The notes beneath the pieces were generated by a model that ran no database searches, was not told the DNA's origin, and saw only the letters and a list, made by a program, of their open reading frames with translations. Below are positions 6,190 to 28,650 of a stretch of DNA of 56,255 nucleotides, in pieces. The translations under genes and the position numbers were made by a program. Each line of letters opens with the position of its first letter. Positions within the stretch are counted from its first letter, which is position 1. The DNA comes from an uncultured Lachnospiraceae bacterium (GTDB lineage Bacteria > Bacillota > Clostridia > Lachnospirales > Lachnospiraceae). The stretch lies in assembly GCA_902801415.1 (NCBI GenBank), contig CADCIK010000013.1, positions 1 through 56,255 of the forward strand. The letters are read 5' to 3'.

Positions 6190-6298
6190 AATATTGGCTG
6201 GGGGAGCGGATGCTGAGACAGCGGCCCGTTCGCGCAAGCGACCGGAGCGGCTGACCCTTATTACTTGACCCGGGTAATACCGGCGTAAGGAAGCACAT
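6190..6298 (+). promoter_or_regulatory. TPP (THI-box) riboswitch aptamer
   Basis: The conserved core is present in order: GGGGGAGC, CTGAGA (6213-6218), a variable GC-rich hairpin (GTTCGCGCAAGCGAC), GACCC, ACTTGACCCGGGTAATACCG and GCGTAAGGAAG. These match the pyrimidine-sensing and pyrophosphate-sensing helices of thiamine pyrophosphate riboswitches. It sits in the leader of a thiamine transporter gene, as expected. The exact ends of P1 are approximate. Confidence 0.9.
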
Positions 6299-6369
6299 AG
6301 TACTGTCAGAACGGCGGGGACTGCGAATGCGTCTCGCTGCGTTTCGCGGCTGTGCTGTGACCCAACTCT

Positions 6370-27892: not shown

Positions 27893-27923
27893 AAGGGGCT
27901 GCCGCAACCGCGGCAGCCCCTTT
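27893..27923 (+). terminator. Intrinsic terminator after glyA
   Basis: AAGGGGCTGCCGC pairs with GCGGCAGCCCCTT; the U-tract is short (TTTCT). Confidence 0.85.
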
Positions 27924-27989
27924 CTACTGCCTCAAAATTTCACAATTAGTCAGAAAATTCAGATAATTTAAAAAGAAAAGCTCAAGTTG

Positions 27990-28018
27990 TTGACAAATTA
28001 TACCTGATTATGTACAAT
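27990..28018 (+). promoter_or_regulatory. Near-consensus sigma-A promoter for a non-coding transcript
   Basis: Perfect TTGACA (27990-27995), a 17-bp spacer and TACAAT (28013-28018). It is among the closest to consensus in the window. No protein gene follows on this strand before the convergent gene. Confidence 0.85.
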
Positions 28019-28024
28019 AAACTC

Positions 28025-28650
28025 ACAAAGAAAAAGAACTCCTTACCGAGGGGGAAGAAAGGAAGGACGAACAGCTCCACTGGTAATCCACTGGAGAACC
28101 TATATTTGGTAACTCGGTAAACTCACAAATATCCGAATTCAAGTACACGAAGATAGCGGTGCATTTTCATCAGAGCAGATATTTCTTTAATCTTAAGAAA
28201 TTCATTTGATAGCCCACAGTAATGGATCCGATGTCAACCGGAATCATGAAAATGGAAGCGAATCAATCATTCTTAGAAGATGAAAACCCAAACTTTAAAC
28301 CTGATCGGAAACCGGAAAGGTACAGGATGAGAAATATATAGATCATATCTTATATTTCAGATCATCGCACCGATCAAATAGTAGATCAGAAGAGAGATTC
28401 AGGGTAAGTTCTAATAAGAATCATTTTTCAAAGGAATGTAAGAAGATATAAAGAAAGCATCCAAATGAGGGTCGACACTCCGTGATGCAGGACATCAGCC
28501 ATGAACATCGCAGTACAATCAGTACAAAAAGAAAAAGGGTGGAACGAAGAAAGGATCATAAAGAAAGTGCAAAGGAGGAATAAGCCATTGGACAAAGCAC
28601 ATTAAGAAAGGGTACCGGTCGTAAAGAAGATCAGTACCCTTTCTTATTGC
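28025..28650 (+). ncRNA. Candidate large structured non-coding RNA (about 625 nt)
   Basis: This AT-rich, purine-rich stretch lies between a near-consensus promoter and a 13-bp terminator and has no open frame I can support. Helices visible by eye: TTACCGAG (28043-28050) with CTCGGTAA (28113-28120), enclosing a hairpin at 28075-28096; ATTTCTT/AAGAAAT (28181-28201); TGATCGG (28302-28308) with CCGATCA (28370-28376), enclosing a 12-bp hairpin with one bulge (28331-28358); and GCATC/GATGC (28457-28488), whose 8-nt loop holds the self-complementary GTCGAC. CTCCTT near the 5' end (28039-28044) can pair with AAGGAG near the 3' end (28572-28577). Size and layout recall ornate large RNAs such as ROOL, GOLLD or OLE, but I do not recognise its sequence as any of them. 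It is not tmRNA, RNase P or 6S by motif. The start is predicted about 7 nt after the -10. Confidence 0.65.
28603..28646 (+). terminator. Intrinsic terminator of the candidate ncRNA
   Basis: A perfect 13-bp stem: TAAGAAAGGGTAC (28603-28615) with GTACCCTTTCTTA (28634-28646). The distal arm is U-rich and continues TTGC; the U-tract after it is weak. Confidence 0.75.

Follow-up and report, generated by a model that had tools for sequence, protein, structure and literature searches.

The window, that is, the whole stretch of 56,255 nucleotides analysed here, comes from an uncultured Lachnospiraceae bacterium and carries a predicted gene for a structured RNA of about 625 nt, delimited by a promoter and a 13-bp stem. 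The locus lies about 115 bp 3' of glyA (SHMT), and a convergent gene for a BadF/CoA-enzyme activase lies beyond it. The glyA gene is followed by a strong hairpin at 27894-27930 (GGGGCUGCCGC...GCGGCAGCCCC), which makes it probable that glyA and the RNA are transcribed separately. Elsewhere the window holds a TPP riboswitch at 6190-6308, barely over the Rfam cut-off (55.3 vs 54.3 bits), and no tRNA was found in it. The parts of the locus, in window coordinates, are the following.

27990-28018, + strand: sigma-70-type promoter, TTGACA-N17-TACAAT, 11 of 12 consensus positions matched
28025-28650, + strand: structured RNA, predicted transcript with approximate ends, from folding and alignment
28056-28083, + strand: block B, purine-rich, AGAAAGGAAGGAC...CCACUGG, without a start codon in the window
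28142-28161, + strand: block C, AGUACACGAAGAUAGCGGUG, whose final 6 nt (28156-28161) pair with block D
28301-28384, + strand: conserved central domain, GAUCGGAAACCGGAAAG...AUAGUAG, with a long local helix
28506-28528, + strand: block D, CAUCGC (28506-28511, pairing with block C) followed by the GUAC hairpin
28513-28525, + strand: GUAC-AAUCA-GUAC hairpin inside block D
28574-28587, + strand: block F, Shine-Dalgarno (SD) sequence GGAGG and spacer ending in CCA
28588-28605, + strand: mini-ORF UUG GAC AAA GCA CAU UAA (MDKAH*)
28603-28646, + strand: terminator-like hairpin, 13-bp outer stem and inner stem, with the stop codon within its 5' arm

The original prediction, made from the DNA letters, was that of a free-standing, non-coding RNA gene with its own promoter and terminator. 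The free-standing gene with its promoter and terminator-like hairpin holds; the purely non-coding character does not, since an SD-led mini-ORF whose frame is kept lies at the 3' end. The promoter is as near to consensus as claimed, and a similar one (TTGAC[N]-N15..19-TANNNT, within 900 nt upstream) is observed computationally at 33 of 33 member loci examined, and at none of the four loci judged chance matches of the core motif described below. The terminator stem, at the level of sequence, has indeed 13 perfect pairs at 28603-28646; it is absent from the automatic terminator scan, whose loop limit is 8 bases, shorter than the loop of this stem. The AT- and purine-rich composition is likewise recovered, with a G+C content of 0.387 where the window has 0.529 (as low in 5 of 1113 overlapping tiles) and a purine content of 0.61 (10 of 1113 window tiles are as high).

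Concerning conventional genes, ORFs of 30 to 55 aa are present in the stretch. Seven protein ORFs, on either strand, were tested as candidates and rejected, since gaps that shift the frame, or stops, interrupt each of them in all 10 relatives aligned, with three of the seven assessed only where the alignment covered them. The earlier statement that there is no supportable protein gene is therefore right for these longer frames, but it missed the SD-led ORF of five codons, which is open in 10 of 10 relatives.

The RNA could not be placed in ROOL, GOLLD or OLE from its letters, and the scans agree: Rfam 15 gives no family over it in the window at gathering score, nor over it in 24 loci of relatives at E<=1. 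The best sub-threshold match, BTnc231 (24.8 bits vs a cut-off of 80.4, E 0.009), was discarded, lying on the other strand in the glyA terminator/promoter region. The suggested likeness to ROOL, GOLLD and OLE is sound as to size and elaboration, but the covariance models of these families give no match in the window stretch at E<=10. A phage origin was also considered and not adopted; 50,697 phage records contain no match to the RNA, and one viral contig carries a fragment. This fragment (L067) comprises about 120 nt of the RNA at the contig end and departs from its relative L020 after the GGAG of block F, a junction that may possibly be an integration site or an assembly chimera.

Distribution of the family

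A blastn search with the 671-nt stretch gives matches in 32 of 99 genomes, the own genome included, all from one genus of the 35 sampled. Among the 30 loci fetched, glyA precedes the RNA in all 30 and the convergent activase follows it in 24. The core motif RYCRCAGTACAATCAGTACA is found in 36 stretches of the species-genome collection, four of which (L031, L035, L046 and L048), being without promoter and context, were taken as chance matches and left out of the member counts, as was the incomplete L067. Model R1, covering the 3' part of the RNA, matches 52 of 62 genus genomes at E<=0.01, where the weakest matches may be chance, and 42 of 62 at 1e-7 or better. Model R2, which describes the terminal unit and the terminator, matches 59 of the 62 at E<=0.1 and 50 at 1e-6 or better.

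When 392 genomes from across the order were sampled, R2 matched 220 at E<=0.01; most of the listed matches below about 30 bits look like generic terminators, and order-wide or class-wide matches that score so low, or that span only about positions 25-84, were left uncounted. Full-length R2 matches of at least 38 bits occur, among the matches listed, in at least 43 genomes from 19 further genera within the family, and about 19 such loci outside the genus were inspected by reading. Across the class, 291 genomes were sampled at E<=1e-7; those with full-length matches above 38 bits are the own genome and members of g36, a genus of the same family, and partial matches came up in G628 and G730. One R2 match of 47.6 bits (L119/L217, genome G212) belongs to another family of the same order, f8, and is convincing by inspection as a member outside the family of the window. 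This locus shows three AUG-started mini-ORFs, MYNE*, MDVKASC* and MDDR*. Candidates in G067, G063 and G722, and a third match in the own genome (G000:C40), were read and not accepted as members.

The relatives that carry the RNA are mostly labelled Lachnospiraceae, from rumen and gut samples, with one isolate, Sarcina sp. DSM 11001, a name that NCBI puts in Clostridiaceae. The family is a computational observation, and we consider it practically certain that it is real.

Secondary structure and covariation

Folding of the single window sequence yields a z of -3.5, with 0 of 20 shuffles as good. For ten sequences of the window clade (L012 was excluded, its 5' half being misaligned), the consensus energy is -213, compared with -126 +- 7 in 40 column shuffles that preserve gap pattern and conservation class (z -12.5). 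Alignment of homologous regions in search of compensatory changes was the check put forward with the original prediction, and it comes out in its favour, 42 of 147 pairs in the ten sequences showing such changes as against a mean of 11.6 and a maximum of 20 in the 40 shuffles. A separate consensus fold of eleven rows contains 97 pairs, 27 of them changed on both sides, and recovers unprompted both the helix joining blocks C and D (28156-28161 with 28506-28511) and the GUAC hairpin (28513-28525). One further sequence, L138, was left out before counting.

The C/D helix and the GUAC hairpin were also analysed together by joining blocks C and D, which were set by eye from anchors in 39 RNAs, 32 of them aligned; an earlier script had picked block C by its pairing. 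Over the 32 rows, 8 of 10 pairs show a double change, a figure reached in 0 of 500 shuffles, and the covariation score is equally reached in 0 of 500. The number of further pair types does not rise above the shuffles, 24 of 500 of which reach it, and 422 of 500 in an edited alignment that otherwise agrees with the first. When the partners are slid out of register, the share of paired cells falls from 91.9% to at most 51.6%. In the terminator stem, double changes affect 13 of 15 pairs (7 of 500 shuffles reach 13), with 0 of 500 shuffles reaching the covariation score. The computational analysis demonstrates structure, and the structured RNA originally proposed is supported, with a z of -12.5 in the window clade and covariation of the C/D helix and the GUAC hairpin.

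It should be noted that the script did not find the C/D helix in many members, and that short and long paralogues are without evident C and D blocks. Block D sits 34 to 375 nt after block C across members. The idea that the palindromic GUAC is an obligatory dimerisation site was dropped, as relatives with GUUC/GAAC, GUAU/AUAC and GUGC/GCAC stems speak against it.

Reading frames in the terminal and repeated units

In the window, the mini-ORF begins nine bases after GGAGG. Its relation to the terminator was examined in 63 distinct members, with a start codon required and the stop codon left free, counting a stop as abutting when its end falls between -1 and +5 nt from where the stem begins. By this measure 57 of the 63 have their first in-frame stop against the stem, and in none does it come earlier; in the other two frames, by comparison, the stop abuts the stem in 3 and 1 members and comes before it in 8 and 17. 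L014 (contig end) and L156 and L160 (GAGAGG) were left out, the script having found no GGAGG or hairpin in them. The members were found with models covering the UUG and the ORF region and are mutually related, so the counts are neither fully blind nor independent. A script for the overall layout recovered it in only 11 of 29 loci, and in at least some of the unrecovered ones (L103, L107) GAGAGG or GCGAGG replaces GGAGG.

A catalogue of mini-ORFs comprises 66 members, after dropping L041 as an artefact, with 49 distinct ORFs. Its pattern demanded one of the starts AUG, UUG and GUG, GA or AA as the first two bases of the second codon, and the presence of a stop, hairpin and promoter, and it serves as a catalogue, not as a test. 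The 49 ORFs start with UUG in 46 cases, AUG in two and GUG in one, and the peptides range from MDDR to MDVEKTEYVS; in members outside the pattern (L238, L241, L242) the second residue is Tyr, Ala or Gly. Synonymous changes make up 14 of 34 in the mini-ORF, compared with 17% expected, or 33% if only transitions are considered, a bias that is weak and only suggestive. Taken as a computational observation, the frame of the terminal mini-ORF is kept, and very probably it is selected to be read. The RNA is not purely non-coding, and the term non-coding does not survive as originally worded for a molecule in which a short terminal frame is conserved, open in every one of the ten relatives and closed against the stem in 57 of 63 members.

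Related units are not restricted to the 3' end. Paralogues of about 0.15 to 0.8 kb carry the unit repeated up to seven times, and block B of the window is probably, to judge from the units of relatives, a diverged copy of the SD unit. A second locus in the own genome (G000:C2:22992-23074; L121, L144) is a paralogue of about 150 nt that has two units and runs from a promoter through block B, an SD and MDKNH* to a terminator, in which the structured body is nearly absent and the SD/mini-ORF units are retained. Loci similar to it were seen in nine relatives (L135, L146, L147, L148, L151, L153, L154, L157 and L158). Long paralogues of 700-800 nt with MDKNS* were seen as well (L142, L143, L145, L149, L150, L152 and L159), the ones that were read having the 5' segment GACGUUACCCGGGUA. 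In genus g36, L110 (G123) and L117 (G100) are RNAs of about 330 nt with a different interior and a similar terminal unit and terminator, ending in the peptides MEKQK* and MEKQN*. In L245 (G037:C71:27300-28900, minus strand) seven GGUACRGWCC units follow one another as an array; several of them have AUG or UUG and an ORF only two to four codons long, and the reading frames include MK*, MKR*, MG* and MGT*.

Among 120 distinct units of the form GGUA-N2..5-NCC[AG], a standard start stands exactly after CC[AG] in 36, most of these being terminal units found partly through the models, with counts of 0 to 3 for offsets 1 to 6. The independent evidence comes from 61 RNAs with 89 non-terminal units, of which seven have AUG or UUG right after CC[AG] and none has a standard start at offsets 1 to 5; the codon at the start place is mostly CCG (23), AAG (13), AUU (8), AUC (6) or CCU (6). 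An in-frame stop nevertheless follows within six codons in 59 of the 89, where the other frames give 24 and 26 and 500 shuffles 28.2 +- 4.4 (maximum 41); these figures are inflated by the relatedness of the RNAs. An earlier, looser frame test on block B (57 blocks, 33 vs 17 and 21, shuffled mean 19.3) was superseded, its pattern having also caught several non-units. The frame is thus kept, by computation, in the other units too, and start-less units that keep it are hard to explain unless ribosomes read that frame, now or recently.

Proposed ribosome engagement and alternative readings

Four genomes, including one from the genus, gave the 16S 3' tail as GCUGGAUCACCUCCUUUCU; they were used because 21 MAGs of the genus had no match to the 16S model. 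Block F can pair with this tail through GGAGG and then, past a small loop, through CCA or UCCA just before the start. The pairing has a mean of -15.4 kcal/mol vs -12.5 with shuffled spacers and is better than these in 36 of 42 cases. Both this mean and that of block B (-16.4) fall inside the range of 53 mechanical window ORFs (-20.4 to -5.6), so pairing alone is not special; what is special is its combination with weak starts and immediate stops. For Staphylococcus aureus, PMC13009471 reports that start-proximal extended SD pairing accompanies non-canonical starts, AUU included.

The reading that we prefer, with a probability of roughly 0.5, is that of a stand-alone, large structured RNA that engages ribosomes, from a family absent from Rfam 15, whose binding and brief translation by ribosomes would be its function. 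The working parts would be ribosome-engaging units, each made up of an SD, a further stretch (RUCCA or CCA) likewise capable of pairing with the 3' tail of 16S, a start codon that is weak or non-canonical, and a stop few codons on, the terminal unit of the window being GGAGG-N9-UUG-GAC-AAA-GCA-CAU-UAA with its stop in the terminator foot. The folded body may display these sites and capture initiating 30S or 70S ribosomes, and the RNA would act as a decoy, or as a gauge of free ribosomes and initiation factors, with no protein product as its purpose. We propose the decoy or gauge because 16S pairing is combined with weak starts and immediate stops, and by analogy with the extended SD sites of S. 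aureus; transcription, ribosome binding and the decoy or gauge role are what we infer. That ribosome engagement is specifically what the RNA is for we would hold tentatively, at slightly under even odds. Against it, the start-place codons of most non-terminal units, such as CCG and AAG, are not known to initiate well, and the greater part of the 625 nt is structure for which the explanation gives no reason.

The neighbouring genes bear on a different use of the same parts. The claim that the RNA is not a leader is upheld in the window and the genus, where the next gene is convergent (24 of 30 loci) and a leader is unlikely, but not outside the genus, where in 15 resolved loci the next ORF is co-directional in 13, at 44 to 327 nt, and convergent in two. 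These co-directional neighbours, identified by reading their sequences, vary from genus to genus (GH3-like hexosaminidase, LytTR, MntP, GGDEF-like, amidase), so action in trans is favoured, but their common co-directional order would allow a cis role outside the genus. In a leader-peptide attenuator, a short SD-led ORF stands immediately before an intrinsic-type terminator, which is the layout seen here, the ORF abutting or overlapping the terminator-like stem in most members. A ribosome reaching the mini-ORF stop would then cover the 5' arm of the hairpin, and ribosome supply would set the balance of short RNA and readthrough, attenuating the RNA itself or its neighbour. The position of the stop and the co-directional genes outside the genus suit such a translation-gated terminator; the convergent gene in the window and most genus loci, the variety of co-directional genes among genera and the upstream units, which it leaves unexplained, make it unlikely. 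The window RNA differs from an attenuator also in having no co-directional downstream gene, and the RNAs of the family in having several units each.

OLE, ROOL and GOLLD are, as described in PMC12286853, large bacterial RNAs with elaborate secondary structure, the ROOL env-120 measuring 659 nt. The present RNA, equally large and elaborate, might work like OLE or ROOL as an ornate scaffold, its function residing in the folded body, perhaps as an oligomer or bound to proteins, and the mini-ORF only protecting or timing the 3' end. Its size, the strength of its structure and a C/D helix that spans interiors of such different length are in keeping with this, yet the interior is very variable and nearly vanishes in the 150-nt paralogue while the SD/mini-ORF units persist, and we judge the scaffold decidedly improbable. 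Differing from those RNAs, it lies beside glyA in the genus, with no tRNA in the window and no counterpart in phage records, and it contains SD/mini-ORF units.

Dual-function small RNAs such as RNAIII/hld and SgrS/SgrT are structured RNAs that hold a small ORF, and the present RNA resembles them in its own promoter and terminator, seen here in sequence, and its conserved small ORF. The RNA might act through a peptide of 4 to 10 residues, such as a signal or one that works on the ribosome. Pentapeptides are in fact conserved within clades (MDKNH, MDKAH, MDGVF), but they differ between clades, which mostly have frame and start context in common; the synonymous bias is weak, and the acidic second residue stems partly from the search pattern, Tyr, Ala or Gly replacing it in other members. 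This reading is very unlikely. The comparison is further limited by the ORF having only 4 to 10 codons at the terminator foot, with related, often start-less units upstream. A sponge that titrates CsrA, to which the GGA motifs of a purine-rich RNA might point, has next to no chance and is excluded in the genus, as csrA is found in only 2 of 62 genomes, the own genome (86% complete) not among them, vs an R2 match at 1e-6 or better in 50 of the 62.

Returning to ribosome engagement, minigenes of the lambda bar type also consist of an SD and an ORF of few codons, and are expected to hold or shed ribosomes quickly; the present units share this composition, but belong to chromosomal, structured, partly tandem RNAs kept over many genera of one family. 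Both large ornate RNAs and dual-function RNAs are already known. The extended SD sites of S. aureus, as described in PMC13009471, share the extra start-proximal pairing with the 16S tail and the weak or non-canonical starts, and differ in initiating genes and small ORFs, where here ORFs of few codons stand in a stand-alone RNA. The cyanobacterial Downstream-peptide motif, described in PMC2864571, likewise ties a structured RNA to a short conserved ORF, but it is a 5' UTR, and the ORFs that it precedes have 17 to 100 codons. No description of this RNA was recognised in the literature, covered by titles and the starts of abstracts with few subscription journals and preprints. What appears to be new in kind, as judged from the sequences, is a free-standing structured RNA made of SD/mini-ORF units, many of them start-less, and not its size; we rate it as new because such units are undescribed in the literature searched, and the novelty would shrink if they were a cis-regulatory leader of a known sort. 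A broader proposal, that these RNAs form a new class in which extended-SD ribosome-capture sites with weak or absent starts and immediate stops, single or arrayed on a scaffold, buffer or gauge ribosomes or initiation factors throughout the family, is possible and rather doubtful.

The locus also bears on annotation, since a selected reading frame as short as five codons can escape notice where DNA is called non-coding by the length of its ORFs. If the RNAs are expressed, rumen and gut bacteria would have a large RNA family within seemingly empty DNA, and its units would tie a structured RNA directly, and testably, to translation initiation, including the question of what purpose is served by Shine-Dalgarno sites that lack a start codon and by ORFs only a few codons long.
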